From Bordetella parapertussis (GTDB lineage: Bacteria > Pseudomonadota > Gammaproteobacteria > Burkholderiales > SG8-41): 64,000 bases of DNA. A model generated the notes under the pieces. The model worked only from the letters and a program-made list of their open reading frames with translations. It made no database searches and was not told the origin of the DNA. Numbering within the stretch: position 1 is the stretch's first letter; each line of letters begins with the position of its first letter. The translations under genes and the position numbers were made by a program. Location of the stretch: the NCBI GenBank assembly GCA_945901405.1, contig CAMDLH010000003.1, positions 1-64,000 on the forward strand, written 5' to 3'. This document shows positions 4,300 to 41,050 of this stretch, in pieces.

Positions 4300-5805
4300 G
4301 TGGATACCTTCGACTACCTGATGAAGGGCTTCGCGGTCGCGATTCGCCCGGACAATCTGCTGTATTGTTTTGTCGGCTGCCTGTGGGGCACCATCGTCGG
4401 CATCCTGCCGGGACTCGGCCCGATGGCGGGCCTCACGCTGCTGCTCCCGCTGACCTTCAAGCTTGAGCCCGCTTCCGCGGTGATCATGTTGTCGGGGATT
4501 TTTTACGGCGCGATGTATGGCGGCTCTACGACGTCGATACTGCTGCGCATCCCCGGCGAAGCGGCGTCGATCATGACCTGCATTGACGGCAATGCGATGG
4601 CAAGGCAGGGGCGCGCAGGGCCGGCGCTGGTGGTGGCGGGCGTGGGCAGTTTTGTCGGCGGCACGGTGAGCGTTATCGGCCTTACGCTGTTTGCGCCGCC
4701 GCTGGCGCAACTAATGCTCAAGGTCGGCCCTGCCTCGGAGTTCGCGCTGATGGCGCTGGCGCTGGTGGTTATGGGTTTTATTTCCAGCGGGCCGCCGGTG
4801 AAAACGCTGACAATGATCGTGCTCGGCCTCATCATCGCCACCATCGGTCTTGATCCGTTGTCGGGCTTTCCGCGCTTCACGTTCGGCCGCATCGAATTGA
4901 GCGACGGCTTGAGTTTCGTCGCCATGGCGCTGGGGTTGTTCGGCGTGAGTGAAATACTGCTTAATCTCGAAAACTTGCTCAATGTAAAGCCGATACATCC
5001 CACCTTCGCCAGCCTGATTCCACGCGTCGCCGATTTGCGCGCCAGCGCGCCGGCAATCGCGCGCGGCACCGTGATCGGATTCGTATTCGGCTTCGTGCCG
5101 GGCATTTCGCACGTGGTTTCGACGTTCGCCTCGTATGCGCTCGAACGCAAGCTATCGAGTCACCCGGAAACATTCGGCCATGGCGCCATCGCCGGTGTCG
5201 CCGGTCCCGAGACCGCCAATAACGCGACCACCGGCAGCGCCATGATTCCGCTGTTGGTACTGGGCATACCGGCGATTCCCGCCACGGCAATATTGTTGTC
5301 CGCGCTGATGATCCATGGCGTGAATCCGGGGCCGCAGTTGGTGAACGAGCATCCGCAAGTGTTCTGGGGGCTGATCGCCAGCATGTATATCGGCAACGTG
5401 ATGTTGCTCGCGTTGAATCTGCCGCTGGTGGGGCTGTTCGTGAACCTGCTGCGTATTCCGTACGCGTGGCTGGCGCCCAGCGTGTTGCTGATTTGCGTGG
5501 TCGGCATCTACAGCGTCAACGCCAACTCGACTGAAATCGGCGTCATGGCGGTGTTCGGTCTGATCGGTTACGTGTTGCGCAAACTGGAATTCGACTGCGC
5601 GCCGCTGCTGCTAGCCGTGGTCGTCGGAGATCGCATGGAAGTTTCGCTGCGACGCGCGCTCATCATCAGCGATGGCAGTTGGACGGCCTTGCTGCAAGGC
5701 GCGTTCTCGAAGGTATTCCTCGGTGCGATCCTATTGCTGATCGTGCTGCAGGGCATCGCCTGGTGGCTGGGGCTGCGGCGCAAGGATTTGAATCAAAAAG
5801 AGTAA
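4300..5805 (+). CDS. TTT large permease subunit (TctA family)
   Basis: A 501-residue multi-pass membrane protein of standard TctA length. It contains the conserved GILPGLGPMAGL segment at about residues 34-45 and the second half-repeat VPGISHVVSTFASYALERK. TctA is the translocating subunit of the TTT system. Translation starts with GTG at 4300, immediately after the tctB stop. The only TctAB pair in the window is here, although seven Bug receptor genes are present. A PrpB-like lyase gene follows by 22 bases, which suggests that the imported anion is metabolised by the next genes. Confidence 0.95.
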   Translation: MDTFDYLMKGFAVAIRPDNLLYCFVGCLWGTIVGILPGLGPMAGLTLLLPLTFKLEPASAVIMLSGIFYGAMYGGSTTSILLRIPGEAASIMTCIDGNAMARQGRAGPALVVAGVGSFVGGTVSVIGLTLFAPPLAQLMLKVGPASEFALMALALVVMGFISSGPPVKTLTMIVLGLIIATIGLDPLSGFPRFTFGRIELSDGLSFVAMALGLFGVSEILLNLENLLNVKPIHPTFASLIPRVADLRASAPAIARGTVIGFVFGFVPGISHVVSTFASYALERKLSSHPETFGHGAIAGVAGPETANNATTGSAMIPLLVLGIPAIPATAILLSALMIHGVNPGPQLVNEHPQVFWGLIASMYIGNVMLLALNLPLVGLFVNLLRIPYAWLAPSVLLICVVGIYSVNANSTEIGVMAVFGLIGYVLRKLEFDCAPLLLAVVVGDRMEVSLRRALIISDGSWTALLQGAFSKVFLGAILLLIVLQGIAWWLGLRRKDLNQKE

Positions 5806-5827: not shown

Positions 5828-6718
5828 ATGAAATTCACCCGTGAACGTGGCAAATCCGGCCCCCGCCGCATGCGCGAACTGCTCGCGCAACCGGGCATCA
5901 TTCTTGGCGGCGGCGCGCACGATGCGCTGTCCGCGCGTATCGTCGAGCAATGCGACTACCCGCTGTGCGTGGTCACTGGCGCCGGCACCAGCATGTGCCA
6001 CGGCTACCCGGACATCGGCTTTGTCGCCGGCGAGGAGATGGTGTCGAACGCGCGGTATATCGCCGAGGCGGTGGAGATACCGGTGATCGTGGATGCCGAC
6101 ACCGGCTACGGCAACGCGATCAACGTCATGCGCACCGTGCGCGCATTCGAGCAGGCGGGCGTGGCGGGCATACACATCGAGGATCAGGACTGGCCGAAAA
6201 AGTGCGGCCACCTGTCGGGCAAGAAACTCATCCCCACGCAGGAGATGGTGGGCAAGATCAAGGCCGCGCTCGATGCGCGCCGCGATCCGGATTTCCTCAT
6301 CATTGCGCGCTGCGACGCGGTGCTGGTCGAAGGCATCGAAGCGGCGCTGGCGCGCGGCGAATCGTATAAAGAGGCCGGCGCCGACATGCTGTTCATCGAG
6401 ATGCGCGAGTCTATGGACGAGATGCGCGCCATCGCCGAGCGGTTTCGCGGACGTATTCCGCTGCATTACAACCATTCGCCCAGCGGCATGGTGCCGCGCC
6501 TGCATGTTTCGGAAATAGAGGCGCTGGGATTCAGCACCTGCTGCTTTTATGCGCAACCGGTGATGGCCGCGGTGAAAGCCATGCGCGACGTGTTAATGGA
6601 GATCAAGCGCAGCGGCAATTCGCTCACGGTGTGGGACCGCATGATTCCGTTCGACGAATTCTGGGAAGTCGGCGGGCTGTCGAAAGTCAAGGCGCTGGAG
6701 AAGAAGTATGGCGTTTGA
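5828..6718 (+). CDS. Isocitrate lyase/PEP mutase family protein (PrpB-like)
   Basis: A 296-residue cytosolic TIM-barrel enzyme close in length to 2-methylisocitrate lyase. It shows the metal-binding strand VDADTGYGN at about residues 88-96 and the active-site loop KKCGH at 124-128, whose Cys is the catalytic residue in C-C lyases of this superfamily. The usual reaction splits a hydroxy- or methyl-isocitrate into pyruvate or glyoxylate and succinate; oxaloacetate-type substrates also occur. A GGAGAG lies upstream of ATG 5828. Its end overlaps the start of hyuB by 11 bases, so it is in one operon with tctBA and hyuBA. Confidence 0.92.
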   Translation: MKFTRERGKSGPRRMRELLAQPGIILGGGAHDALSARIVEQCDYPLCVVTGAGTSMCHGYPDIGFVAGEEMVSNARYIAEAVEIPVIVDADTGYGNAINVMRTVRAFEQAGVAGIHIEDQDWPKKCGHLSGKKLIPTQEMVGKIKAALDARRDPDFLIIARCDAVLVEGIEAALARGESYKEAGADMLFIEMRESMDEMRAIAERFRGRIPLHYNHSPSGMVPRLHVSEIEALGFSTCCFYAQPVMAAVKAMRDVLMEIKRSGNSLTVWDRMIPFDEFWEVGGLSKVKALEKKYGV

Positions 6719-8459
6719 TCCGGTACGGCTGGAACTGGTCAAGAACGCGATCGGTTCCGTGGTCGATGAGATGGTGCTCACCGTCGTGCGCATCGCCTAC
6801 TCGTCGATCATGAAGGACACCATGGATTTGTCGAGCGCGTTCTGCGATGCGCGCGGGCGCATGATCGCGCAGGGCTTGTCGCTGCCGCTGCATCTGGGCT
6901 CGATACCCGATGCGATGGACGCGGTGCGTGCTGAGTACGGCGACACACTGGCGGAAGGCGATATCGTGGTATTCAACGATCCGTATCAGGGCGGCATGCA
7001 CCTGCCTGACATCTTCATGGTGAAGCCGGTGTTTGTTGGTGAGCGGCGCATCGGCTACGCGGTGGTGGTGGCGCATCACAACGACATGGGCGGTCGCGTG
7101 CCCGGTTCGAGCGCGGCCGACTCGACCGAAATATTCCAGGAGGGGTTGCAAATCCCCGTGCTCAAACTCTATGACCGCGGTGTGCCCAACGAAACGCTGA
7201 TCAGCATGATCCGCCGCAATGTGCGCATCCCCGATGTCATCATGGGCGATATCGACGCGCAAATCGCCGCCTGCCGCATCGCCGATCGCGGCATGAACGA
7301 GCTGGCGGCCCGTTTTGGCGTTGATCAACTTGAACAATACTTTGATGAGTTGCTGGATTATTCGGAGCGCGAGGCACGCCGCACCATCCGCGCCATCCCC
7401 GACGGGGAATACCGCTTTTGCGACTATCTTGACGACGATGGTGTTGATTTCGGCCGGCCAGTGAAGGTGTGCGCCCATGTGCTGGTGCGTGGCGAGGACC
7501 TGACGATGGATTTGAGTGAAACGAGTCCGCAGGTGCGGGGTGCGATCAATTCGACGCTGTCGTTCGCCAAGTCGGCGGTGTATTTCGCTATACGCGCCAT
7601 CATGGATTCCGATGCGCCGAACAATGCAGGCTTCATGCGCCCGATCCGCGTCATCGCGCCCGAGGGATCGCTGCTCAATCCGCGCCGGCCGGGTGCTGTC
7701 GCCGCGCGCGGAGTTTCGGGCTTTCGTCTGATCGACGCGATCTTCGGCGCGCTGGCGCAAGCGGTGATCGAGCGTCCACGCGCCGCCGGCGAAGGAGGGA
7801 CCACCAGTTACTCGATAGGCGGTTACGACGACGATGGACGTTTTATTTTGTTTCGCGAGGCGATCATGGGCGCGTGGGGCGGCGGCCTCGAGCGCGAAGG
7901 TATCGATGGCGTCGCGAACCCTGCGGCCAATATCAGCAACGCGCCGGTGGAAATGGTCGAGAACCAGGCGCCGATACGCGTCGAGCGTTACGAACTGGAT
8001 GCCGACAGCGGCGGCGCGGGGCGTTGGCGTGGCGGGATGGCGGTCACGCGCCAACTGCGTTTTCTGGGCGCGCGCGCCACGCTGCAGTTGCGATCCGACC
8101 GGCGCAATTTCCCGCCGTACGGTCTTGCCGGCGGCAAGCCAGGGCGCGGCTCGATGAATTTGCTCGACGAAGGCGATGGCCAATGGAGCGAGTTGCCGAC
8201 CAAGTTCACGCGCGCCATCAGCAAGGGCCATGCGTTTTGCCACACCTCGGCGGGTGGCGGCGGATACGGCGAACCCTACTTGCGTGATGCCGAAAAGGTG
8301 CTCGCCGACGTGCGCAACGGCAAGGTTAGCATCGCCGCAGCCGAACGCGACTACGGGGTGGTAGTTCAGCCGCGGCCATGGCGTATCGATGCCGAGGCCA
8401 CCGCGCGCCTACGCAGTGGCAGTGCGCCGCGCGCGAACGCGGGAGCAGTAGCAAAATGA
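6708..8459 (+). CDS. Hydantoinase B/oxoprolinase family protein (HyuB-like), locus 1
   Basis: A 583-residue cytosolic subunit of the HyuB/acetone carboxylase alpha-like family. Conserved blocks include NDPYQGGMHLPD at 90-101, AHHNDMGGRVPGS at 122-134 and, near the C-terminus, SAGGGGYGEP. HyuB acts with the ATP-binding HyuA subunit to hydrolyse or carboxylate cyclic imides, 5-oxoproline or ketones; the substrate cannot be told from sequence. The start codon lies within the end of the upstream lyase gene and its stop overlaps the hyuA start as ATGA, so expression is tightly coupled. Confidence 0.93.
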   Translation: MAFDPVRLELVKNAIGSVVDEMVLTVVRIAYSSIMKDTMDLSSAFCDARGRMIAQGLSLPLHLGSIPDAMDAVRAEYGDTLAEGDIVVFNDPYQGGMHLPDIFMVKPVFVGERRIGYAVVVAHHNDMGGRVPGSSAADSTEIFQEGLQIPVLKLYDRGVPNETLISMIRRNVRIPDVIMGDIDAQIAACRIADRGMNELAARFGVDQLEQYFDELLDYSEREARRTIRAIPDGEYRFCDYLDDDGVDFGRPVKVCAHVLVRGEDLTMDLSETSPQVRGAINSTLSFAKSAVYFAIRAIMDSDAPNNAGFMRPIRVIAPEGSLLNPRRPGAVAARGVSGFRLIDAIFGALAQAVIERPRAAGEGGTTSYSIGGYDDDGRFILFREAIMGAWGGGLEREGIDGVANPAANISNAPVEMVENQAPIRVERYELDADSGGAGRWRGGMAVTRQLRFLGARATLQLRSDRRNFPPYGLAGGKPGRGSMNLLDEGDGQWSELPTKFTRAISKGHAFCHTSAGGGGYGEPYLRDAEKVLADVRNGKVSIAAAERDYGVVVQPRPWRIDAEATARLRSGSAPRANAGAVAK

Positions 8460-10549
8460 GTGATTCAGCACAATCGCTTCGTGTGGGTGTCGATATCGGC
8501 GGCACCTTTACCGACCTCGTGTTTCTGCACACGGATGGGCGTCTCGATAAACTCAAGGTTCCATCCACGCCCGACGACTATTCGCGCGCGATCACCGAGG
8601 GCATCGCGAGTTATTGCGCCCGGCACCAGCTCGACGCCGCGCATATTTTTGAAGTCGTGCATGCCACCACGGTGGCGACCAACGCCATACTCGAACGCAA
8701 GGGCGCGAAGACTGCGCTGATCACCACCAAGGGCTTTCGCGATGTGCTGGAGTTGCGCCGCATTCGTATTCCCATGTCGTACGATCTGGGTTGGGAAAAA
8801 CCAGCGCCACTGGTGGAACGCGAGTGGCGTATCGAAGCCGCCGAGCGGCTGGACGCGCGCGGCAACGTACTGGCGCCGCTCGAGCCAGCGGCGATGGAGC
8901 AGGCTGCCGCGCAACTGTTAAACACCGGCATAGACGCAGTGGCGGTGTGCTTCCTGCACAGCTACCGCGATGCGCGTCACGAGAAGCTCGCTGGCACCGT
9001 GCTGCGCCGCCTGTTGCCCAACGCCTACATCACGTTGTCGCACGAAGTGCTGCCCGAGATGCTCGAATACGAGCGCACCAGCACGACCGTGGTCAACGCC
9101 TACGTTGGGCCGTTGATCGGGCAGTACCTGGCGCGTTTGCGCGAACGATTCACTCAACAGGGCATCACCGCGCCAATTCTTGTCATGCAGTCGAATGGGG
9201 GTCTGGTCAGCGCCGGCACCGCAGCAGCGCGCCCGGTGACCATCATCGAGTCGGGGCCGGCCGCCGGCGTGGTGGCGGCCGCGCGTCTGGCGCGCGACTG
9301 CGGCCACGCAAACGTCATCACGCTGGATATGGGGGGTACGACCACCAAGGCTTCGATCATCGAGGCTGGCGAAATGCTGCGCGCCGCCGAGTATGAAGTT
9401 GGCTCGCGTGTATCCGCGTCCAGCCGCCTGATGCGCGGCAACGGTTATCTGCTGCGCATACCGGTGATCGACGTATCGGAAGTCGGCGCGGGTGGCGGCA
9501 GCATCGCCGCGCTCGACGCCGGGGGCAGCTTGCGTGTCGGCCCCTTGAGCGCGGGCGCGGTGCCGGGGCCGGCGTGTTACGGGCAGGGCAATACCCGGCC
9601 GACGGTTACCGATGCCAACCTGGTGCTGGGTTTTCTCGGCGTCGATTCGCTCGCCGGCGGCGCGCTGCACTTGCGGCGCGAGTTGTCCGAGCGCGCGTTG
9701 CAAACCCATATCGCCGACCCCAGCGGGCTGTCGTTGCTTGACGCCGCGTGGGGCGTGCACGTGATCGCCAACTCCAACATGGTGCGCGCGATCAAATCGG
9801 TATCGGTCGAACGCGGGCGCGATCCGGCCGAGTTTGCGCTGATGGCTTTCGGCGGCGCGGGGCCGGTGCATGCTGTGAGCGTGGCGGCGCAGCTTGGCAT
9901 ACGCACCGTCATCATTCCGCCCGCGCCGGGTGTGTTCAGCGCGTTCGGCCTGCTGCGCGCGGATATAGAGCACCACGCGGCACGCACGGTGCTCACCTCC
10001 ACCGCACAATTCGATGCGAACGCCATCAACGGCACGATCAGCGAAATGCGCGAGGAGTTGTCCGCGCGCATGCGCGACGAAGGACTGGATCCCAATCACG
10101 TCAAGATTACAATTTTTGTTGATCTGCGTTATCGCGGGCAATCTTCCGAGATCACCGTGCCGTTTCCGGAGCAGACGCTCACCGAGGCGGCGTTGCGTGC
10201 GGCCGAGCAGCGCTTCGAACTCGAATTCCAGCGCACTTACGGCCATCGCGGCAAGACGCAGGATTTTGAACTGGTGACCTGCCGCTTGATCGCGACCCTG
10301 CCGCGGGCCACGCAATACCAGGCGAGCTGGGAGCACGACAGCGTCGATATCGCGCCGACGCGCGCGGTCTACTTCGGCGCTGAATCCGGTTTACTGCAAA
10401 CACGCGTCATTACACGCGGCGCGCTGGCAGCGGCGCCGGTGGCGGGGCCTGCCATCGTGCAGGAATACGATACCAGCGTGGTGATTCCTCCCGGTTGGGT
10501 TGCGCGGCTTGATATGGCCGGCAACATCGTGGCGGTGCGTTTAATATGA
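8456..10549 (+). CDS. Hydantoinase A/oxoprolinase family protein (HyuA-like), locus 1
   Basis: A 697-residue ATP-dependent subunit with the actin/HSP70-like phosphate-binding start GVDIGGTFTDL (residues 11-21), HATTVATNAILERKG (69-83) and a second phosphate motif LDMGGTTTKAS. It should form a heteromer with the HyuB encoded just upstream, sharing a 4-base ATGA overlap that also fixes the start at 8456. Partner chemistry is ATP-dependent ring opening or carboxylation. Its final codons (RLDMAGNIVAVRLI, stop) recur in altered form at 12910-12955, downstream of a block of mobile elements. Sixteen bases after its stop an IS91 transposase fragment begins. Confidence 0.93.
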   Translation: MSDSAQSLRVGVDIGGTFTDLVFLHTDGRLDKLKVPSTPDDYSRAITEGIASYCARHQLDAAHIFEVVHATTVATNAILERKGAKTALITTKGFRDVLELRRIRIPMSYDLGWEKPAPLVEREWRIEAAERLDARGNVLAPLEPAAMEQAAAQLLNTGIDAVAVCFLHSYRDARHEKLAGTVLRRLLPNAYITLSHEVLPEMLEYERTSTTVVNAYVGPLIGQYLARLRERFTQQGITAPILVMQSNGGLVSAGTAAARPVTIIESGPAAGVVAAARLARDCGHANVITLDMGGTTTKASIIEAGEMLRAAEYEVGSRVSASSRLMRGNGYLLRIPVIDVSEVGAGGGSIAALDAGGSLRVGPLSAGAVPGPACYGQGNTRPTVTDANLVLGFLGVDSLAGGALHLRRELSERALQTHIADPSGLSLLDAAWGVHVIANSNMVRAIKSVSVERGRDPAEFALMAFGGAGPVHAVSVAAQLGIRTVIIPPAPGVFSAFGLLRADIEHHAARTVLTSTAQFDANAINGTISEMREELSARMRDEGLDPNHVKITIFVDLRYRGQSSEITVPFPEQTLTEAALRAAEQRFELEFQRTYGHRGKTQDFELVTCRLIATLPRATQYQASWEHDSVDIAPTRAVYFGAESGLLQTRVITRGALAAAPVAGPAIVQEYDTSVVIPPGWVARLDMAGNIVAVRLI

Positions 10550-10565
10550 GCCGCCACGATCTGAC

Positions 10566-11433
10566 TTGGTGGACAACATCCTGCCGCACGTAGCGGTGCG
10601 CCAGTGGGTGCTGTCGTTCCCGATACCGCTACGCGGCCTGTTCGCCGTGCATCCCGATCTCATTCCCCTGGTGTTGCAGATCATCCACCGCGCCATCACC
10701 ACGTTTCTCATCCAGCAAACAGACATCAAACGCAGCGAAGCCGCCACCGGCGCTATCACTCTTCAGCGTTTCGGATCCGCGGCGAATTTGAACACGCACC
10801 TGCACGCACTGGCGCTTGATGGCGTTTACAGCACAGCGGGCGAGGGCGCGCCGGTGTTCCAGCAGGCGCCGGCGCCCTCGCCCGAACAGTTGCAAGTGCT
10901 GCTCGACAAAATCATCAACAGAATCGTGAGATTACTGACACGCCTCGGTTATCTGGTCGAGGAAGAGGGCATCACCTACATGGCGCGCACCGACAGCATC
11001 GACCCCGACAACGTACTCGCCCCGCTGCAAGCCGCCTCCAGCACCTGGCGCATTGCGATGGGGCCAAGGGCAGGGCGCAAAGTGCTGAGCTTGCAAAACA
11101 CATCGCCCGTAGGATGGGTGAAACCCATCACAACCCATCGTGCCAACCCCGCAAAGCTGTGCGCCAACGGCCACGGATTCAGCCTGCACGCAGGCGTGCG
11201 CCGTGACGCCGATGACCGTAAAGGTATCGAACAATTGTGCCGCTACATCACGCGCCCGGCCATCTCCAACGAACGCCTGAGCATCAACCGCGAAGGTAAC
11301 GCAGTCCTCAAGCTCAAAACGCCGTGGCGCAATGGCGCCACCCACATCGTGTTGACGCCGATGGAATTCATGCAACGGCTGGCAGCACTGGTGGCGAGAC
11401 CGCGATTACACCTGATACGGTTTCACGGCGTGC
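10566..11433 (+). pseudogene. IS91-family transposase, truncated at both ends
   Basis: The reading frame matches the central Y2 HUH transposase domain of IS91-like elements: HVAVRQWVLSFPIPLR at the start, the HUH motif THLHALALDG, and CRYITRPAISNERL carrying a candidate catalytic Tyr. It ends at HLIRFHGVL. The zinc-finger N-terminus is absent, and after about 11433 the sequence switches to an unrelated protein fragment, so this is a dead remnant. A short palindrome (GATGGGTGAAACCCATC, 11113-11129) sits in an apparent small insertion within the frame. Homology begins within 16 bases of the hyuA stop. The assignment is from recalled family motifs. Confidence 0.75.
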
Positions 11434-11948
11434 TGCCGCACCTTCTCCTTCAAGTTCACCGCGCACAGCACGTTTGTCCAGTCTGCCCGGCGCAAGTGCC
11501 TGCACCTGTATTTCTACTTTATGGACCGCGACTTCGGTTTGATCCATGTGCGTGTGCAGACCTGGTTTCCGCTACAGATGCAGGTCTATCTGAATGACCA
11601 TGAATGGCTCGCTCGCAAACTGACGGCCCAAGGCGTGCGTTATACCAAGCACGACAACGCCTTTGTCTGGATCGAAGACATGGCTCGCGCACAGCGCTTT
11701 GCGGATCGATTTGTCAATTTGAAGTGGCCAGCGATACTCAATGGCTACGCGAAGCAAGTGGTACCGCAGTTACACGACATCCTGAGTGGTTGCGAGCACT
11801 ACTGGGTGAGTGCGCAAAGCGAATACTCCACCGACATCCTGTTCAAAACACGCCGGGACTTGAGTGAACTGTATCCGAAGTTACTGAGCCACAGCACCTT
11901 ATGCTTTGGTGCCAAGGAAGTGATGAACTTCCTGGGTCGTGCGGAGCG
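11434..11948 (+). pseudogene. Fragment of a conserved multi-copy hypothetical protein
   Basis: The frame reads TFSFKFTAHSTFVQSARRKC, then LHLYFYFMDRDFGLIHVRVQ and TWFPLQMQVYLN, and runs to CFGAKEVMNFLGR near 11945. It resembles the middle of a roughly 400-residue uncharacterised protein family that I recall as multi-copy in several proteobacteria. Start and end are both missing: the 5' side joins the IS91 remnant at about 11433 and the 3' side is cut by the left end of the tyrosine-transposase element at 11952. The longest open frame from ATG 11521 runs on into the element and is not a genuine gene. Function is unknown. Confidence 0.6.
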
Positions 11949-11952
11949 AGTG

Positions 11953-11974
11953 GGGTCAAGTCTTGTCTATTGCC
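11953..11974. repeat. Left inverted repeat of RAYT element
   Basis: This 22-bp end begins GGGTCAAGTCTTG and ends TATTGCC. It matches the reverse complement of 12881-12902 at 21 of 22 positions. Confidence 0.85.
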
Positions 11975-11984
11975 TTTCTGCCGG

Positions 11985-12857
11985 TCAATCACCATCTAAT
12001 TCCTTCTGTTTAACAATTCGGCTCACTCGCGAGAGCGACAGTCCTACCGCGTCCGCAATCGCTGTCAGACTGTAATGCCCCTCTCGCAGTGCCAACATAA
12101 TACCTGCATCACGATCTGCCTTTTGATCGAGGTAGTGCTGTAGCGGTTTGGCCTTCGCCCGGCGCTGCTGACGGGGAATCTCTTTTGCGCTGACCTTTGC
12201 GGGGTCAAGCTTGGCTTGCATTTTGTCGATAAAGTTTTGGTCACCCAAATAGATTTGCTGTGACAATGCTTGCTCCCACAGCGCAACACCCTTGCCAGCA
12301 GCAACCAGCGCGACGTAAAGATTTGCTGCCTTGATCGTGTCGCTACGCGTCACGGGAGGGCTGCCGAGGACGTAGCCATGTACCGAGGGTGTATCCAGCC
12401 ATTCTGGAGCCGATGCGGTACCGATGTGGGCGGCGTAGCTGCTCCAGGGCCAATTGCCCGGCGCACGCACCGTACGCGCGCGCACCGGGTTGAGATCAAC
12501 ATAACGGCAAACTTCGAGCAGATACGTATCGCGATCCACAAGTATGCCCTTGAACCGCCCTTGAAACAGGTGCCCCACCTTGTGGTGCCGCCGGTTATAG
12601 GCTTGGGTATAAACGCCGTTGATCTGACGCATCAGACGCGAGAGGTTGGCGCGTCGCGTGTGGATCACGAAGTGATAGTGATTGTCCATCAGGCAATAAG
12701 CCAGCGCAACAGCATCAAAGCGTTGCAATGCCTGAGAAACCACGTCCAAAAAACTTCGCCGGTCTACGTCATCCTCAAAAATGACTTCGCGCCGGTCGCC
12801 ACGAGAAGTCACGTGATAGATTGCGCCTGGGAATTCGATGCGGAGAGGGCGTGCCAT
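11985..12857 (-). CDS. REP-associated tyrosine transposase (Y1_Tnp/TnpA_REP)
   Basis: A 290-residue Y1 HUH transposase. It begins MARPLRIEFPGAIYHVTSRG, which is the usual RAYT start, has the metal-binding HUH motif DNHYHF (His60 and His62) and a candidate nucleophile Tyr in AYNRR (Tyr87). A helix-turn-helix-like tail, LTAIADAVGLSLSRVSRIV, follows near the C-terminus. Such enzymes nick and join single-stranded DNA at REP-type hairpins. The start at 12857 is chosen because the homology begins there; the frame stays open far upstream only because it is antisense to the AtuA-like gene. The gene appears intact. Confidence 0.9.
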   Translation of the reverse strand: MARPLRIEFPGAIYHVTSRGDRREVIFEDDVDRRSFLDVVSQALQRFDAVALAYCLMDNHYHFVIHTRRANLSRLMRQINGVYTQAYNRRHHKVGHLFQGRFKGILVDRDTYLLEVCRYVDLNPVRARTVRAPGNWPWSSYAAHIGTASAPEWLDTPSVHGYVLGSPPVTRSDTIKAANLYVALVAAGKGVALWEQALSQQIYLGDQNFIDKMQAKLDPAKVSAKEIPRQQRRAKAKPLQHYLDQKADRDAGIMLALREGHYSLTAIADAVGLSLSRVSRIVKQKELDGD

Positions 12858-12880
12858 CAGTGTAGGATAGATGGGGTCGA

Positions 12881-12902
12881 GGCAATAGTCAAGACTTGAC
12901 CC
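12881..12902. repeat. Right inverted repeat of RAYT element
   Basis: This 22-bp end starts GGCAATAGTC and ends CTTGACCC. It is the partner of the repeat at 11953-11974 with a single mismatch, and marks the right boundary of the element next to the hyuA remnant. Confidence 0.85.
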
Positions 12903-12909
12903 TTTCCAT

Positions 12910-12955
12910 GCGGCTCGACGCTGCAGGCAACATCGTGGCGGTGCGTGTAATATGA
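12910..12955 (+). pseudogene. Remnant of a hyuA 3' end
   Basis: Forty of 47 bases match the last codons of the intact hyuA at 10504-10550 (compare RLDAAGNIVAVRVI-stop here with RLDMAGNIVAVRLI-stop there). The rest of this second copy is gone, replaced by the mobile-element block to its left. It directly precedes the AtuA-like gene. Because the match is not perfect it is more likely an old paralogue or diverged duplication than a fresh target-site duplication. Confidence 0.75.
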
Positions 12956-12995
12956 GTGGCACAAGTAAAACAGGCCTGATCAGCGGAGGCGCAAA

Positions 12996-14360
12996 TTGAA
13001 GCTTGATGAAGTGCGGATGATTTCGGCGAGCGGAATTCTCGGTTATGGATTTCCGGAGAGTTCGCTCAAGGCGGGGCTCGCGCGCAAACCCCATATGATA
13101 GGCGTCGACGGCGGCAGTTCGGATCCGGGGCCGCATTACCTCGGTTCGGGAAAAGCGTTTACCAACCGCCTTTCCATCAAGCGCGACCTGTCGCTTCTCG
13201 TGCGCGGTGCAATCGCCAACAAGATACCCATGGTGATCGGCACCTGCGGCGGCGCGGGCGGCGAACCGCATCTGCAAATGTGTGTTGAACTTCTGCGCGA
13301 AATCGTGCGTGAACATGATCTGCATTTCAAGCTCGCGTTGATCCATTCCGAACAAGACAAATCCTGGCTCAAGGCGCGCGTAAAAGCCAACCGCATGCAT
13401 GCGCTCGGCGGCGCGGCGCCGTTGACCGATGCAGTGATCGACCGCGCGGAGCGCATCGTCGGCATGATGGGGCCGGAGCCGTACCGGGTTGCATTGGAAG
13501 CGGGCGCGCAAGTGATACTGGCCGGGCGCAGCACTGACCCTGCACCGTGGGCGGCGCTCGCCATGCATCATGGCATGCCGCCGGCGCCGTCGTGGTTCGC
13601 CGGCAAGATGCTTGAATGCGCGTGCAACGCGGCGTTGCCGAAAAAACACGATTGCCTGATGGGGACAGTGGCGCCCGGTTACGTCGAGGTCGAGCCGCTC
13701 AATCCGGAATTGCGTTGCACGCCGCTGTCGGTCGCGGTGCAGGCCTTGCACGAAAACGCCAGTCCCATCATCCACAAGGAGCCGGGTGGCATTCTCGATA
13801 CCAGTGCATGCGAGATCAAGGCGCACAGCGAGCGCGCGGTGCGGGTGTCGGGCATGAAATGGCTGCCGCAGCCCTACACCATCAAGCTCGAGGGCGCGGA
13901 AAAGGTCGGCTATAGCGCGATCACCATCGCGGGCACGCGCGACCCTGGCTTGATCGGGCAGATCGATGATTTCGTGCGCTCGGTGCGCGAGTCGGTGGCG
14001 ACCAAGGTGGCGGCGTTTAATGTGTCGCCCGAGGACTACCAGCTGGTGGTGCGGCTCTACGGCAAGGACGGCGTGATGGGCGGCTGGGAGCCGCACAAGG
14101 GCGCCGCAGCGCACGAGATCGGCATTCTCGCCGAGGCCGTGGCGAAAACGCAGGACATCGCGAACGCCGTGATTTCGGTGATACGCGTGACCTTCCTGCA
14201 CACGGATTTTCCCGGACGCCTGTGCAAGGAAGGAAACATGGCGTTTCCGTTCTCGCCATCGGACATCGAGCGCGGCCCGGTGTACGAATTTTCGCTGCGC
14301 CACGTGGTCGAGCCGGACGATCCCTATCAGATGTTTCCCATCGAATACGAAACCCTGTGA
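12996..14360 (+). CDS. AtuA-like protein (acyclic terpene utilisation AtuA family, DUF1446)
   Basis: A 454-residue cytosolic protein whose start (MISASGILGYGFPESSL, then DGGSSDPGPHYLGSG) matches the AtuA/DUF1446 family. AtuA is needed for geranyl/citronellyl-CoA breakdown in Pseudomonas but its exact reaction is unclear. Translation probably begins at TTG 12996 (displayed as Met), with a GGAGG six bases upstream; no ATG is better placed. The DUF4387 gene follows by six bases, a common pairing. Its neighbourhood of HyuA/HyuB genes suggests a role in the same acyl or amide degradation route, but no terpene genes are in view. Confidence 0.88.
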   Translation: MKLDEVRMISASGILGYGFPESSLKAGLARKPHMIGVDGGSSDPGPHYLGSGKAFTNRLSIKRDLSLLVRGAIANKIPMVIGTCGGAGGEPHLQMCVELLREIVREHDLHFKLALIHSEQDKSWLKARVKANRMHALGGAAPLTDAVIDRAERIVGMMGPEPYRVALEAGAQVILAGRSTDPAPWAALAMHHGMPPAPSWFAGKMLECACNAALPKKHDCLMGTVAPGYVEVEPLNPELRCTPLSVAVQALHENASPIIHKEPGGILDTSACEIKAHSERAVRVSGMKWLPQPYTIKLEGAEKVGYSAITIAGTRDPGLIGQIDDFVRSVRESVATKVAAFNVSPEDYQLVVRLYGKDGVMGGWEPHKGAAAHEIGILAEAVAKTQDIANAVISVIRVTFLHTDFPGRLCKEGNMAFPFSPSDIERGPVYEFSLRHVVEPDDPYQMFPIEYETL

Positions 14361-18109: not shown

Positions 18110-20143
18110 ATGCAACCACCTGCGCAAGGTAGCGTCGGTCCCATCACCGCCGGGCTGATCCAGGCGCGGCTGAGTTCCATCGTGCGCGAGATGCGCACGA
18201 TCATTATCCGCACCGCGTATTCGCGCATGATCATCGAGGGGCACGATTTCTCCTCGGCGGTGTTGAGTCCGGCGGGCGATCTGGTGGCCGCCTCCGAGCT
18301 CGAACAGCCCACGCATATTTCCGCGCTGTCGTGGTCGGCGCGCGCGATCGTCGAAAAGTACCATGGCGACATCGGCGAGGGCGATCTCTTCCTGCACAAC
18401 GACCCGTACAGCGGCGGCTCGCACCTGAATGATGTGGGATTGTTCTGTCCGGTGTTTCACGATGGCGAGCCTCTGGCGATGGTGGGGGTGATGGCCCATT
18501 GGCAGGACATCGGCGGCATGGTGCCGGGGAGCCTTTCGGGCAGCGCCACGGATATTTTTCAGGAAGGTATCCGCATTTGCGCGCTACGCATCGCGCGGCG
18601 CGGCGTGTGGCTGACCGAGGTGCTGGACTTGCTGTTCGCGAACGTGCGCCAGCCCGAGGACCGGCGCGGCGACCTCGCCGCGATGGAAGGCGCGTGCCGC
18701 ATCGCCGAGCGCAGGCTGCATGCGATGGCGGGGCGCTTTGGCGTGGCCACGATACGCGCGGCGCTGATCACGTTGCTTGACCGCGCCGAGCAGCGCATGC
18801 GCGAGGCGATACGCGGCGTGCCGGATGGCGACTATGCCTACGAAAGCTATCTCGACAACAGCGGCGATTCCGCCGAGCCGTTGCGGTTGAAACTGAAGCT
18901 GACTGTCGCGGGCGATGAGATCCATGCGGATTTCACCGGCTGCGCGCCGCAGGTGCTGGGGCCCGCCAACCTGGGGCCGGCGCCGGCGACGACCGCCACC
19001 TTCACCATGACAAAAGCATTGCTCGACCCTGCCGGCCCCATCAATGCCGGGGCCTTGCGCCCGCTCAAGGTGACCGCGCCACTGGGCAGCGTCGTCAACG
19101 CTCGGCATCCGGCGGCGTGCGGCGCAATCGGCGAAGTGCGCCGCGCGCTGGAAGCGCTGGTGGCGGGCACGCTGGGCAAGGCGATACCACAACGCCTGGT
19201 GGGCGATCTGAAGGGGGCATCAAACATTACCTCGCTGGGCGGACGCTTTTCTGATCGCGCGAGTGATTTTCTGTTCGCCGAGTTTCCCGCCGGCGGCACC
19301 GGCGCCACCGCGCTGGGCGACGGCAACAACACCATGCGTAATTTCGCCGAGGGCGATATCTCCTCGATCCAGCCCATCGAGGCGGCTGAGCTGGGATGCC
19401 CTCTGCGCGTGGAGCGCATGCTGCTGCGGCAGGATTCCGGAGGCGCCGGCGGCACGCGCGGCGGCTTGGGCTTGCAGCGCGAGATTCGGGTGCTCACGCC
19501 CGAGGCGCGGCTGTCGGTGCTCTCCGACAAGAACATTATTCCGCCGTACGGCGTGCGCGGCGGCGGCCCCGGAGGGCGCAATCGTTTTACCGTGCGCCGC
19601 GACGGCAGAGAGATCGAGCCTTCAACGCTGCCTGGCAAGGTCACCGGTTTTTTGTTGTGCGCCGATGATGTGGTGATCGTGCGCACGGCGGGCGGCGGCG
19701 GCTACGGTGATCCGCTTGAACGCGAGCCGCGGGCGGTCGCGCGAGACGTGAAATTCGGCTACGTCACGCCCGCGAACGCGCACGCGGTGTATGGCGCGGC
19801 AATCGATGGCGATACAGTGGATGAGGTCGCGACAGCGGCACTGCGCGAGCGGCTGCGTTCGGCAAGGCCGCGGCTTCGCTTGGCGGCACTCGACGGTGAC
19901 GAGTACCAGGGTTCAAGGCGCGTGGCGCAGATCGCGCCGGCCACCGCGCAGCGCCTCGGGTTGTGCGACGGCGATATGGTGGAGTTTCCGTGTGTGGGCG
20001 GCCCCTCGCTGCTTGCCTGGGTGCGTATTGAGGCGCGGCTCGCCGACGACGTGTGTTGCATCGGCGCCTCGGGCCTGGCGATGCTCGGCCTCGTTGCGGG
20101 TGAGTGCGTCGAGTTGCGCACGATAGGCGCGCGCGATGCATAG
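18110..20143 (+). CDS. Hydantoinase B/oxoprolinase family protein with C-terminal extension, locus 2
   Basis: A 677-residue HyuB-family protein, about 90-110 residues longer than the other three in the window (564-583). The core has NDPYSGGSHLNDVG and AHWQDIGGMVPGS and ends in the usual TAGGGGYGDP. An extra C-terminal segment beginning about residue 600 reads RRVAQIAPATAQRLGLCDGD and then MVEFPC, resembling a double-psi beta-barrel like that of molybdopterin-dinucleotide domains. The extension may stabilise the complex or bind a ligand; this is inference. It overlaps the following hyuA gene by eight bases. Confidence 0.92.
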   Translation: MQPPAQGSVGPITAGLIQARLSSIVREMRTIIIRTAYSRMIIEGHDFSSAVLSPAGDLVAASELEQPTHISALSWSARAIVEKYHGDIGEGDLFLHNDPYSGGSHLNDVGLFCPVFHDGEPLAMVGVMAHWQDIGGMVPGSLSGSATDIFQEGIRICALRIARRGVWLTEVLDLLFANVRQPEDRRGDLAAMEGACRIAERRLHAMAGRFGVATIRAALITLLDRAEQRMREAIRGVPDGDYAYESYLDNSGDSAEPLRLKLKLTVAGDEIHADFTGCAPQVLGPANLGPAPATTATFTMTKALLDPAGPINAGALRPLKVTAPLGSVVNARHPAACGAIGEVRRALEALVAGTLGKAIPQRLVGDLKGASNITSLGGRFSDRASDFLFAEFPAGGTGATALGDGNNTMRNFAEGDISSIQPIEAAELGCPLRVERMLLRQDSGGAGGTRGGLGLQREIRVLTPEARLSVLSDKNIIPPYGVRGGGPGGRNRFTVRRDGREIEPSTLPGKVTGFLLCADDVVIVRTAGGGGYGDPLEREPRAVARDVKFGYVTPANAHAVYGAAIDGDTVDEVATAALRERLRSARPRLRLAALDGDEYQGSRRVAQIAPATAQRLGLCDGDMVEFPCVGGPSLLAWVRIEARLADDVCCIGASGLAMLGLVAGECVELRTIGARDA

Positions 20144-22208
20144 AGCTGCAATGAGCGCCACGCTGATCGCGGGTGTCGATGTCGGCGGCACATTTACCGA
20201 TATCGTGCTGTTCGACGCGCGGCATGGCACGCTGAGCGTGGGCAAGGTGCCGTCGACGCCCGCCAACCAATCGCAAGGGGTATTGAATGGCCTGCAAAGC
20301 GTGTTGCCCGCGCAGGACCAGCTCACCTCGCTCGATAAACTGGTGCATGGCACCACGGTGTCGACCAATACCATGTTGCAACGTAATGGCGCATTGGTTG
20401 CGATGGTTACCACGGCAGGATTTCGCGATGTGCTTGAAATCGGCCGCACGCGGCGCATGCTGCCGAGTCTGTATGACCCCACGTTCAAGCGCCCGCCGCC
20501 GCTGGTGGCTCGCCCTTTGCGCTTTGAGGTCGCGGAGCGCCTGGGTACCGATGGTGCCGACGGCACCGTGCTGACACCTTTGGACGAGGCGGGCCTTGCG
20601 GCGGTGGCGGACGCGATACGCGAGGCGCGCGCGGAGTCGGTCGCGGTGTGTTTTTTGCATTCGTATCTCGACGCCGCGCACGAATTGCGCGCGAAGGAAT
20701 TGTTGAGCTGCGCGCTGCCCGGTGTGTGGATTACCACGTCGGCTGAAGTCGTGCCCGAGTTTCGCGAATACGAACGGTTTTCGACCACGGTCATCAATGC
20801 GTATCTGCTGCCGGTGATGGATCGCTATATGGCGGCCCTGGGCGCGCAACTTGGCGCGCACGGCTATCGCGGCGCGGTCTACACCATGTCCTCCGGCGGC
20901 GGCATCATGGATATTGACACCGCGCGCGGTTTTCCGGTGCGCACCATCTTGAGCGGGCCGGCGGGCGGCGTGGCGGGCGCGACCTGGATCGCAAGGGCGG
21001 CGGGTATTGCGAATGTCATCACCTGCGACATGGGCGGCACCAGCACCGATGTGTGCCTGATCGAGAACCTGATGCCGTCGCTCACTAATGAATCCGCATT
21101 CGCAGGTTATCCGATCAAGGGCCGCGAGGTGGCCATCAACACCGTCGGCGCGGGCGGCGGCAGCGTGGGGTATGCCGAGGCTGGCAACACATTGCAGGTT
21201 GGTCCGCGCAGCGCTGGTGCTGAACCGGGGCCGGCCTGTTATGGCCGTGGCGGCATTGAACCGACCGTCACCGACGCCAACATGGTGCTAGGCCGGCTGG
21301 GCACGCGGCAGCTCGGCGGCTGGATACGGCCCGACATCGATCTGGCGCGGCGCGCGGTGGGCGCGCTTGCCGGTGAACTCGGTGTCGCGAGCGTGGAGGC
21401 CATGGCCGAGGGCATCGTGCGCATTGCCGTGGCGCAGATGGCCAGCGCGATACGCGAGATTTCCATCGAACGTGGTTTCGATCCATCCGATTTCGTGTTG
21501 CTTGCGTTCGGCGGCGCGGGCCCCATGCACGCCGCGCAGATCGCCGACGAAATCGGCATGCGCGAGATTCTGATTCCCATCCTGCCGGGCAATCTGTCGG
21601 CGCTGGGGCTGCTTGCGTCCGATCAGACTTACGAACGCGTGCTGACTTTTCTCGCGCGATTGTCCACACTCGACGCGGCGGCACTTTCCGCCGCGATCAA
21701 CGAACAGGAACGCCTGGGGCGCGATGAACTTGGCAATCGCGGATTCCAGCCCGAGGCAATGCAGTTTCGTCACGCACTCGACATGCGCTACGCGCGCCAG
21801 GCGTTCGAGCTTACGGTCGATCTGCCCGGCGGCGTACGCACCGCCGATGAGTTACGCCAACATTTCATCGAAGCCTACGCGCGCCACTATGGCCGCGCGG
21901 ACCCGCACGGCGAGATCGAGATCGTAAATTTGCGCACCACGTCGGTGGGCGTGACCGGCAAGCCTGCCTTGCCGCCGGCGCGCGGCGCGGCGCAAAACCT
22001 TGCCGATGCCGTGACCGCGCGGCGCACGCTGCTGCATGATGGTGCCGCCGTCACCGCCGCCGTGTATGAGCGCGAGCGGTTGCCCGTCGATGTGGCGTTC
22101 GACGGGCCGGCCATCGTCGAGGAAGAGGGCTCCACCACGGTCATCCTTCCGGGCTGGCAGGCGCGCCGCGACGCCTTGGGTAATCTGCGTTTGCGGGCAA
22201 ATCGCTAA
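20136..22208 (+). CDS. Hydantoinase A/oxoprolinase family protein (HyuA-like), locus 2
   Basis: A 690-residue ATP-binding partner of the preceding HyuB. Motifs are GVDVGGTFTDIVLFD near the N-terminus, HGTTVSTNTMLQRNG, and the second phosphate loop DMGGTSTDVCL. Start at ATG 20136 overlaps the hyuB stop by eight bases; ATG 20151 is an alternative with a weak AGAG before it. The position behind a complete ABC importer suggests that the imported compound is its substrate. A broken HpcH/HpaI aldolase gene follows after 16 bases. Confidence 0.92.
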   Translation: MHRAAMSATLIAGVDVGGTFTDIVLFDARHGTLSVGKVPSTPANQSQGVLNGLQSVLPAQDQLTSLDKLVHGTTVSTNTMLQRNGALVAMVTTAGFRDVLEIGRTRRMLPSLYDPTFKRPPPLVARPLRFEVAERLGTDGADGTVLTPLDEAGLAAVADAIREARAESVAVCFLHSYLDAAHELRAKELLSCALPGVWITTSAEVVPEFREYERFSTTVINAYLLPVMDRYMAALGAQLGAHGYRGAVYTMSSGGGIMDIDTARGFPVRTILSGPAGGVAGATWIARAAGIANVITCDMGGTSTDVCLIENLMPSLTNESAFAGYPIKGREVAINTVGAGGGSVGYAEAGNTLQVGPRSAGAEPGPACYGRGGIEPTVTDANMVLGRLGTRQLGGWIRPDIDLARRAVGALAGELGVASVEAMAEGIVRIAVAQMASAIREISIERGFDPSDFVLLAFGGAGPMHAAQIADEIGMREILIPILPGNLSALGLLASDQTYERVLTFLARLSTLDAAALSAAINEQERLGRDELGNRGFQPEAMQFRHALDMRYARQAFELTVDLPGGVRTADELRQHFIEAYARHYGRADPHGEIEIVNLRTTSVGVTGKPALPPARGAAQNLADAVTARRTLLHDGAAVTAAVYERERLPVDVAFDGPAIVEEEGSTTVILPGWQARRDALGNLRLRANR

Positions 22209-22975: not shown

Positions 22976-25120
22976 CTAACCAGCGCGCCGTTTGACTGGC
23001 TTGCGCGCCGCCAGCCGCACCCACAGATTGCAGTGCTTGTCGACTTCGATGCTGGCATCCGGGCCAACCACCACGGTTGATTCATGCTCTTCGATCACGG
23101 CGGGGCCGCCCAGCCGCGCGCCTTCGTTAAGCGCGTAGCGATCGTAGATCGGGCAATTCACGAATGCGCCTGCTTCGGGCATGAACACCTTGCGATGTCC
23201 CTTCAGCGGTTTGGTTTTGCGCCCATCGCCGGAGTTGCGCACGGCATCGATGTTCACCTTGGGCGCGGGGCCTTCGATGATGACGCGCCAGCTTACGATC
23301 TCGACCGGCACATCGCGATTCAAACGATGGTAGCGCGCTTCGTATAATTCAAAAAATCGTTGCCTCGCCTTGGCGAGTTCTTTTTTGTTTAACGTTGCCT
23401 TGACCGGCACCGAGAGTTCAAAACTTTGTCCGGCAAAGCGCATGTTCGCTTCGATCACCGTGCGCAGTTTTGATTTCGCGATACCGCAGGTTGCCACCAG
23501 CGCCTGGCCTTCGGTTTCCATTTCGCGCAGGAATGCGTTGATGCGTACCGGGTCGGCGGATTCAACCGGTGCGAGATCGGCGCGTATCATTTCGAACGAA
23601 GGCGCGGTCACCAGGAAGCCGAATGCCGACATCACGCCGGCGCGCAGCGGATAAAAAATCGTGCGGATGCCCAGCGCTTTTGCCACGCGAAAGGCATGCA
23701 CCGGACCGGCGCCGCCATAGGCGATCAGCGTGTATTCGCGCGGATCCTTGCCGCGTTCGAGGCAGTGCACCTTTGCCGCGCGCGCCATGTTTTCGTTGAC
23801 GATCTCATGCACGCCCCACGCGGCGCGCAACGCGGACAGACCCAGCGGCGCGGCCAGATGTTTTTCGATCGCATGCGCGGCGGCGTCGCGATCCAGCGGC
23901 ATTTGTCCGCCGAGAAAATATTTTGGATCGAGGTAACCCAGAAACAGATCCGCATCGGTCACCGTCGGCGCAGCGCCGCCCAGCCCATAGCAGGCGGGGC
24001 CGGGATCGGAACCGGCGCTGCCGGGCCCGACGTTGAGCAGCCCGAGCTTGTTAACACCCGCGATGCTGCCGCCACCCGCGCCGATCTCGATCATCTCGAT
24101 CACGGGAATCTTCAGCGGCAAGCCGCTGCCCTTTGCAAAACGGAATACGCGGTCGATCTCGAACTCGGTTGAATGCTCGGGCTTGCCTTCGTCGATCACG
24201 CACACCTTGGCGGTGGTGCCGCCCATGTCGAGCGCGATCGCTTTCGCGATGCCGGTTTCCTGCGCAAAAAACGCCGAGGCCATCGCGCCGCCGGCGGGGC
24301 CGGATTCGATCAGGCGCACCGGATAACGATTGGCCGTCTCGCAACTGACGATGCCGCCATCGGAAGTCATGATCGATAGCGGGGCGGCGATGCCTGCACG
24401 CTTGAGCTCCTGCGCCAGGCGGTCGAGATAGCCGCGTATCGCCGGCTGCACGTAGGCGTTGGCGGCGGTGGTGCTGGCGCGCTCGTACTCGCGGATATCG
24501 GGCATCACGTCCGATGACAGCGACAGCGGCACGTGAGGCAATTCCCGTTCGAAGAGCGCCGCCAGCGCGCGTTCGTGTTGCGGGTTCTTGAATGCGTGCA
24601 GCAGGCAAACCGCGACCGCCTCAATGTTTTGCGTTTTTAGCTGCGCGATCACCTTGCCGGCCTGCTCCGCTGCGAGCGGTACGGTAACCTTGCCGGTGTG
24701 GTCGATGCGTTCTTCGATCTCGTAGACGTGTTTTCTGGGCACCAGCGCGGCGGGCAATTCGATGTTGATATCGTAGATGTCGAAGCGGCTTTCGCGTCCC
24801 AGTGCGAGGACATCGCGAAACCCGCGCGTCACCAGTAGCGCGGTCTTGCCGCCTTTTCGCTGGATCAGCGCATTGGTGGCCAGTGTCGTGCCGTGAATCA
24901 CGCGCTCGATTGCCGCGGTTGAATCGGGCACCCTTGAAGCGAGCTGGCGCACGCCATCGAGCACGCCTCGCGCGAGATCCTGATAATTGGTCAGTACCTT
25001 GGCCGCATGCACTTCGCCCGATTGCAGGTTCATCAGCGCAAAATCGGTGAACGTGCCGCCGATATCCACGCCGAGCGCGTAGCGGGTGCGCCGTGTCGAG
25101 GTATTTTTGCTTGTTTTCAT
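22976..25120 (-). CDS. Hydantoinase A/oxoprolinase family protein (HyuA-like), locus 3
   Basis: A 714-residue HyuA-family protein with GVDIGGTFTDFALMN, HGTTLATNALIQRKG and LDMGGTTAKVCVID, the actin-like ATP site. ATG 25120 is selected because a GGAAG lies seven bases upstream and it falls one base after the stop of its hyuB partner; the frame is open further upstream inside that gene. It should form an ATP-dependent amidohydrolase or carboxylase with that HyuB. No transporter gene is directly attached to this pair, though a Bug gene lies at 28496. Confidence 0.92.
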   Translation of the reverse strand: MKTSKNTSTRRTRYALGVDIGGTFTDFALMNLQSGEVHAAKVLTNYQDLARGVLDGVRQLASRVPDSTAAIERVIHGTTLATNALIQRKGGKTALLVTRGFRDVLALGRESRFDIYDINIELPAALVPRKHVYEIEERIDHTGKVTVPLAAEQAGKVIAQLKTQNIEAVAVCLLHAFKNPQHERALAALFERELPHVPLSLSSDVMPDIREYERASTTAANAYVQPAIRGYLDRLAQELKRAGIAAPLSIMTSDGGIVSCETANRYPVRLIESGPAGGAMASAFFAQETGIAKAIALDMGGTTAKVCVIDEGKPEHSTEFEIDRVFRFAKGSGLPLKIPVIEMIEIGAGGGSIAGVNKLGLLNVGPGSAGSDPGPACYGLGGAAPTVTDADLFLGYLDPKYFLGGQMPLDRDAAAHAIEKHLAAPLGLSALRAAWGVHEIVNENMARAAKVHCLERGKDPREYTLIAYGGAGPVHAFRVAKALGIRTIFYPLRAGVMSAFGFLVTAPSFEMIRADLAPVESADPVRINAFLREMETEGQALVATCGIAKSKLRTVIEANMRFAGQSFELSVPVKATLNKKELAKARQRFFELYEARYHRLNRDVPVEIVSWRVIIEGPAPKVNIDAVRNSGDGRKTKPLKGHRKVFMPEAGAFVNCPIYDRYALNEGARLGGPAVIEEHESTVVVGPDASIEVDKHCNLWVRLAARKPVKRRAG

Positions 25121-25121
25121 G

Positions 25122-26816
25122 TCATTCTTCCGGCGGCGCCGATGCCGACGCTTCATCGGGCTGCAAGCCGTAGTCCTTGACCGCGGACGCAACGCTCACG
25201 ATGCCGTTTTCGATATCGCGCGTGAGCGCAATTCTGTCGCGCTCGGCGGCGGGATACATGCCGCCCGAGCCGGGAATCACCAGGCGCATCACGTCGCCGT
25301 TATGCAACACGCGCGGCGTTTTGTCGGGGATGGGTTTATCGTTCATCGTCAGCGCCCCGGCGGCGCCGGGCAGCGCCCCTCGCAGCCCGTTTGGCGGCGT
25401 AGCGAGTTTGCCATGCACCGCGCGCACGGTCAGCGGCGTGGGCGACACCGACTCGAACGCAAACTCCTGGCCGCATCCGCCGCGATAACGACCCGCGCCG
25501 CCCGAGTCTGGCCGAATTCTCTTGTAGAGCACGCGCACCGGAATTGTCGATTCGAGTATTTCCACCGGCAGATTCGAAGAGTTGGCGGGAAAGCTCATGC
25601 AATGCAACCCGTCCTTGCTGCCGCGCGCGCCCATGCCGCCCATGATGAACATGACATCGGAAAACGGCTGGCCGGCTTCATCGCGGCCGGCGAAATCGAC
25701 GAGAAACTTGTTGCCCGACTCGGCCAGTATCTGATCCTTGACCACGCCTTTCAAGGCATCGATGATGGCATCGGGGATGTAATGACCGCTGCTCGGCTTC
25801 ATGCGCACCGGCGCGGGGAATCGCGGGTTCAGAAACGACCCTTGCGGCGCGCTCACTTGAATCGGCGAGAACGTGCCTTCGTTATTCGGCACGTGCGGGC
25901 CCGCCAGGCACTTGATGGTGTAGGTACTCCACACGGCGGTATACACCAGCGTGCAGTTAATGCCCTGATCGCTTTGCACCGAACTGCCGGCGAAACCAAC
26001 CTTCACGTTGCCGTCGCGCACCTCGACCTGCGTGTGAATGTGCATCGGCTGCGCAAATCCATCCACGCTCGCGCTGCCGTGGTAAATGCCGTCGGGGATG
26101 GTGTCGCGCACGCCCTGGCGCATGGCCTGGCGCGATTTATGCAGGATCGCATCCGCGAGCGTGTTGAGATCGTCCATGCGCTGCTCCGACAGAAACTCTG
26201 AGAGCTTCGCTTCCATCACGCGGCAGCCAACCACCAGCGCACGCACGTCGCCGAGCACTTGGTTCGGCACGCGCACGTTGGCGCCGAGCATGGCGAAAAA
26301 TACCGGGTTCTCCTTGCCGCGATCCATCGCCTTTACCGGCGGAATGATGAGACCCTCTTCGTACACCTCGCGCGGCGGCCCCGAAAGACAGCCGCCGATG
26401 TCGGCCATGTGCGCCATGCACTCCGCGAAGCCCACCAGCCGCCCTCTGTGGAACAACGGTGCAACGATAGCGATGTCGTTGAGATGGCCCATGATCCACC
26501 ACGGATTATTGGTGACGAGCGCATCGCCCGGCTTCAGGGAACTCGCCGGGAAATGCTTGAGCATCTCCTTGACCGCGATGGAGATGGTGCCGGTCTTGGA
26601 GGCGATGCTCACATCGGCGGCCACCAGCCGGCCTTGCGTATCGAGCAGCAGGGCGCCGAAATCACGCCCTTCCACCACCACCTTGGACATCGAAGTGCGA
26701 ATGACCGCGTACGCGGCCTCGTCTACCACGGTAATCAGCCGGTTCCAGAGGACTTCGAGGTCTATGGGGTCGAAATGTCTTTTACCGCGGCTCGCCGCGC
26801 TGCGTTTTTTATTCAT
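25122..26816 (-). CDS. Hydantoinase B/oxoprolinase family protein (HyuB-like), locus 3
   Basis: A 564-residue HyuB-family subunit. The characteristic block is TNNPWWIMGHLNDIAIV followed by AHMADIGGCLSGP. Compared with the other copies the usual NDPYxGGxH reads NNPWWIMGH, so substrate contacts may differ. ATG 26816 (MNKKRSAAS) is chosen because an AAGGGAAG lies just upstream; earlier in-frame Met codons fall in the divergent promoter region. It is transcribed away from an amidohydrolase gene at 26970, and its stop is one base from the hyuA start. Confidence 0.9.
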   Translation of the reverse strand: MNKKRSAASRGKRHFDPIDLEVLWNRLITVVDEAAYAVIRTSMSKVVVEGRDFGALLLDTQGRLVAADVSIASKTGTISIAVKEMLKHFPASSLKPGDALVTNNPWWIMGHLNDIAIVAPLFHRGRLVGFAECMAHMADIGGCLSGPPREVYEEGLIIPPVKAMDRGKENPVFFAMLGANVRVPNQVLGDVRALVVGCRVMEAKLSEFLSEQRMDDLNTLADAILHKSRQAMRQGVRDTIPDGIYHGSASVDGFAQPMHIHTQVEVRDGNVKVGFAGSSVQSDQGINCTLVYTAVWSTYTIKCLAGPHVPNNEGTFSPIQVSAPQGSFLNPRFPAPVRMKPSSGHYIPDAIIDALKGVVKDQILAESGNKFLVDFAGRDEAGQPFSDVMFIMGGMGARGSKDGLHCMSFPANSSNLPVEILESTIPVRVLYKRIRPDSGGAGRYRGGCGQEFAFESVSPTPLTVRAVHGKLATPPNGLRGALPGAAGALTMNDKPIPDKTPRVLHNGDVMRLVIPGSGGMYPAAERDRIALTRDIENGIVSVASAVKDYGLQPDEASASAPPEE

Positions 26817-26923
26817 TGCCTGCTTCCCTTGCGTGCCCGCACGCATCCACGCGAAGACCATATCATACGAAAAGAGCATCGTCACAGGGCGGAAGGCGCG
26901 CACAGCGAACGTTTGCGCTGCGC

Positions 26924-40983: not shown

Positions 40984-41050
40984 GTTGTGTTTTCGAAGCG
41001 TGGAGCGTCGTAGAATAGTCGAACTCCAGCGCCAGTCCAACACTTTACAC
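40984..41050. promoter_or_regulatory. Divergent promoter region between hyuA and hyuB (locus 4)
   Basis: The 67-base gap holds a TAGAAT (41011-41016) that could be the -10 box for hyuB; no clear -35 partner is seen. There is no Shine-Dalgarno before either start. Both subunits could be balanced from this shared region. Confidence 0.35.

Follow-up and report, generated by a model that had tools for sequence, protein, structure and literature searches.

REP-associated tyrosine transposases (RAYTs) are Y1_Tnp, IS200-like transposases (PMC2817692). Like them, the element found in the 64,000-nucleotide stretch of Bordetella parapertussis DNA analysed here (the window) has an open Y1_Tnp frame and terminal inverted repeats. 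It differs in that solo ends are rare, the end motif recurring just once elsewhere in the genome, and no large REP family of the end sequence was seen there. The intact gene upstream of this element was compared with the HyuA family (PF05378, PF01968, PF19278; hydantoinase/oxoprolinase, caprolactamase CapA-like) and matches all three Pfam domains. Its score against the NCBIfam caprolactamase is 549, below the cut-off of 1000 bits and too low to assign its substrate. A short stretch on the far side of the element matches the last 15 codons and is by itself too short for family assignment. The features of the locus are as follows.

6708..8459, + strand: hyuB (Hydantoinase_B), which with hyuA ends module 1; Pfam PF02538, E 7e-172; collinear with contig C434 of relative G028
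8456..10549, + strand: intact hyuA; Pfam PF05378/PF01968/PF19278; 85% ortholog in G028
10504..10550, + strand: intact copy of the repeat, the last codons of hyuA; repeat search
10550..10565, + strand: residual sequence separating hyuA from the IS91 fragment; IS91 homology within the genome begins at 10563-10567
10566..11439, + strand: IS91-type Y2 transposase fragment; PF04986, E 4e-24, and copies in the same genome
11440..11951, + strand: piece of a gene from an unnamed family of ~516-aa proteins; 42-43% identical to open frames of 516 aa in relatives G011 and G023
11952..12902, - strand: RAYT (Y1_Tnp, IS200-like) element; PF01797, E 1.5e-12; open transposase 11985-12860
12903..12955, + strand: remnant, probably what is left of the 3' end of a second hyuA; the match covers 12910-12955, and 12903-12909 is presumed; translation (L)-S-M-R-L-D-A-A-G-N-I-V-A-V-R-V-I-stop
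12952..12995, + strand: 15-codon frame overlapping the remnant stop, M-S-G-T-S-K-T-G-L-I-S-G-G-A-N-stop; read from the sequence
12996..14360, + strand: atuA (AtuA/PF07287), first gene of module 2; TTG start; order conserved in G028, G060 and G002

A repeat search of the window aligned 10504-10550 with 12910-12956 on the same strand at a spacing of 2406, with 40 of 47 nucleotides identical. The sequence-only reading had reported this 40/47 repeat, and it is real, with the small correction that the match extends to 12956. When the genome itself (6.43 Mb, 327 contigs) was searched with a 101-nt query (12900-13000), the only matches were the query and 10504-10550, the latter at 85% (E 2.5e-8). In ungapped scans the repeat scored 40/47 against a runner-up of 27/47 in the window and of 30/47 over ~2.5 million positions of the retrieved loci. 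Neither the genome nor 149 relatives contained a better match to the remnant than 10504-10550, the best other retrieved position being the one at 30/47; the 101-nt query gave no match in these relatives and hence no placement in another gene. Chance or convergent similarity between the two copies is thus practically negligible, given the genome-wide E value, the uniqueness in the genome and a score of 40/47 set against a background maximum of 30/47.

The intact copy reads R-L-D-M-A-G-N-I-V-A-V-R-L-I-stop and the remnant R-L-D-A-A-G-N-I-V-A-V-R-V-I-stop in the same frame, with no indel between them, in agreement with the in-frame RLD-AGNIVAVR and stop noticed earlier. In both copies the TGA stop overlaps an ATG (ATGA); in intact hyuA the stop lies at 10547-10549 and the ATG at 10546. 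Of the seven differences, three are silent changes at third codon positions, three make up a single fully replaced codon (ATG/GCT) and one is a Leu/Val exchange. In all, four lie at third positions, and seven are too few to prove an origin while both copies coded. The RAYT terminal repeat stops at 12902, directly abutting the remnant, which may start at 12903. The L-S-M codons that precede the 47-nt match could also be hyuA, on a stretch of only 7 nt that is too short to test. At the other end, the 15-codon frame runs into the ribosome-binding site and TTG start of atuA. Beyond lying in the atuA leader, the remnant is not expected to have a present role, and no function is likely. The atuA start at 12996 is apparently TTG, and this codon with the preceding GGAG box is common to G028 and G060.

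Several truncated elements together make up the material between the two copies. It had been described as an IS91 remnant, another gene fragment and a RAYT element, and the Y2_Tnp and Y1_Tnp profile matches agree. Compared with the other copies in the genome, the IS91 fragment is truncated on either side, lacking everything before 10563-10567 and after 11439, so that a complete Y2 transposase with both ends is not present. A palindromic repeat of ~28 nt (cgtaggatgggtgaaacccatc...) lies within it at ~11107-11134; it has ~30 other matches in the genome and is missing at the corresponding point of the closest IS91 copy. The short stretch upstream, 10550..10565, could encode the beginning (M-S-R-H-D-L) of a downstream gene since lost, whose identity is putative. 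Next to the IS91 fragment, the piece at 11440-11951 is the other gene fragment, also delimited as 11446-11955; its family has no Pfam or NCBIfam match, and few relatives carry it. The RAYT element has both the Y1_Tnp transposase and the terminal inverted repeats of 23 nt (from the repeat search, at 11953-11975 on the left and at 12880-12902 on the right), and its left boundary near 11952 was fixed by a solo left end in contig C68. The two hyuA stretches are not the identical short flanks of a target-site duplication round one insertion. As the earlier reading held, 85% identity is too low for a fresh one; 7/47 differences, with one codon altered throughout, do not fit it either.

Upstream, module 1 consists of tctB-tctA-ICL-like-hyuB-hyuA, and downstream, module 2 consists of atuA, DUF4387, two ABC permeases, a binding protein and an ATPase. 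Four hyuA/hyuB pairs lie in the window (6708-10549, 18110-22208, 22976-26903 and 38884-42790), and the genome has 14 hyuA-like genes. Orthologs of hyuA were sought in 74 genomes of the family and 399 genomes of the order; in the family search only seven genomes, this one included, gave hyuA at E 1e-200 or better, and apart from this genome and G028 their identity was 62-67%. The closest relative found was G028 (hyuB 88%, hyuA 85%, atuA 89%).

hyuBA and atuA-DUF4387-ABC mostly form distinct modules in the relatives examined; G060 and G002 have both on one contig, ~20-35 kb apart. Contig C434 of G028 carries module 1 and then, in this order, an MmgE-like gene, a gene resembling methylisocitrate lyase (ICL-like) and the start of atuA. 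That atuA comprises the first 32 codons only (positions 4401-4496 of locus L146) and is cut by a transposase, and a second contig, C20, has a complete module 2 with an intact second atuA. The C434 start was compared as a candidate closer match to the atuA of the window, and all copies gave 76-79 identities out of 96, a spread that does not single out any of them as closer. Used as a query against the genome studied here, the MmgE of G028 found nothing above 51%, a result in keeping with loss of the MmgE/ICL-like interval at this locus. An ICL-like match elsewhere in the genome (C19, 72%) was rejected as the lost interval, being an intact paralog in another context. MmgE N-termini were also compared with M-S-R-H-D-L and M-S-G-T-S-K and gave no confirmation of a lost MmgE start.

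The sequence ahead of atuA was inspected at 93 loci, all of them having 600 nt or more on that side and 64 having 3 kb or more, some genomes being counted twice. In none of the 93 did a hyuA on the same strand end within the 3 kb before atuA, as far as the retrieved flanks reach, and flanks of up to 5 kb contained none either. Accordingly, no full-length second hyuA was found at this position in a relative within that sequence, and none of the relatives checked has hyuA twice in tandem or immediately before atuA. The expectations of the sequence-only reading for relatives were thus not supported on two counts: an insert-free order hyuB-hyuA-atuA-DUF4387 was not among them, G028 having the MmgE and ICL-like genes in between, and no second hyuA with a better-matching 3' end was found before atuA. 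The arrangement that would have spoken against it, a single hyuA and these 47 bases preceding atuA, likewise did not turn up in the 149 relatives.

The ends of the orthologs bear on which hyuA the remnant derives from. The G028 protein ends GNIVATAA*, the intact one GNIVAVRLI* and the remnant GNIVAVRVI*, and the 62-67% orthologs have quite different C-terminal ends. The hyuA C-terminus changes fast, as both the 85% ortholog and the more distant ones with their different ends show. GNIVAVR-I-stop-(ATGA) is common to the remnant and the neighbouring intact copy only. Judged by sequence, the remnant is hyuA-derived and closer to intact hyuA than is that gene's best known ortholog (G028, 85% protein identity). 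Since its tail matches only the intact neighbour, the two copies probably parted later than this lineage and G028 did. In 16-codon windows, the hyuA studied here and that of G028 show a mean of 10 differences, with seven or fewer in 34%. The 15% divergence between the copies is well within the range of such windows between the two genera and alone gives no date.

We favour, with some confidence, the view that 12903/12910-12955 is what remains of the 3' end of a hyuA copy that this lineage once had besides the intact one. A possible but considerably less probable course is a duplication confined to the 3' end of hyuA, for example through element insertion or double-strand-break repair, in which case a second full hyuA never existed and the copies then drifted. 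This would agree with a duplicated stretch of only the last 47-53 nt and with the lack of a second hyuA at this place in any relative checked. Nevertheless, the seven differences, the GCT/ATG codon and the unbroken frame without indels suggest long divergence. Moreover, the remnant, and not the intact copy, has the Ala also found in G028 (LDAAGN), and IS91 and IS200-like elements are not known to produce duplications of ~50 bp.

Two further explanations were weighed. The remnant might be the tail of an original single hyuA that ran into atuA, the present hyuA and the debris having been recombined from a related strain. The tails do differ by about as much as some between-genus hyuA stretches do, as the 34% of windows against G028 indicates. 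Such a replacement is nevertheless unlikely: hyuA-atuA adjacency is absent among the 93 atuA loci, and the roughly equal distances of the two modules from G028 give module 1 no appearance of a recent arrival. That the contig, which is metagenome-derived, wrongly joins two strains or paralogous loci is very improbable, even with a genome in 327 contigs and 6.8% contamination. Misassembly is made less likely by the lack of long near-identical repeats in the block, in which the longest IS91 match is 77% identical, RAYT matches reach at most 73% and exact repeats at most 31 nt.

With the leftover of a second copy as the preferred reading, the hyuA region (perhaps hyuBA and the start of the downstream gene), or only the hyuA tail, would have been duplicated in tandem in this lineage. 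One hyuA copy would have ended up immediately ahead of the atuA module, after which insertion and deletion events associated with IS91 and RAYT may have removed that copy except for its last ~50 bases. Any genes between the copies would have been lost in the same IS91/RAYT-linked rearrangement. The hyuA origin of the remnant, its frame, its uniqueness and its neighbours are observed, and the tandem duplication, the full second gene and the element-mediated deletion are steps that we infer. A lineage-specific duplication is likely, although no relative checked offers a parallel. With only 47-53 nt remaining, two full hyuA genes are not demonstrated; duplication of the whole gene is a candidate reading that a stretch of this length cannot show. 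Of the lost second hyuA proposed earlier, the tail of a second copy behind mobile debris therefore stands, and the two full genes and a supporting order in relatives do not. It is doubtful that the cluster once had two functional, diverged HyuA proteins, one with hyuB and one with atuA. If so, the atuA-DUF4387 module would have worked with its own HyuA until mobile elements removed that gene.

The locus is a rearranged catabolic cluster in which atuA-DUF4387-ABC, separate in most relatives, adjoins hyuBA, with a hyuA scar at the join. The scar helps to account for the odd gene order and adds no new mechanism; the remnant is a case of ordinary gene decay at a site rich in mobile elements. Compared with the remnants left after insertion-sequence-associated deletion of a duplicated gene, the case differs in that none of the relatives checked offers an intact second copy or an empty site to prove the deletion. 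Like them, it consists of a short in-frame 3' fragment with the end of a mobile element abutting it and an intact paralog nearby.
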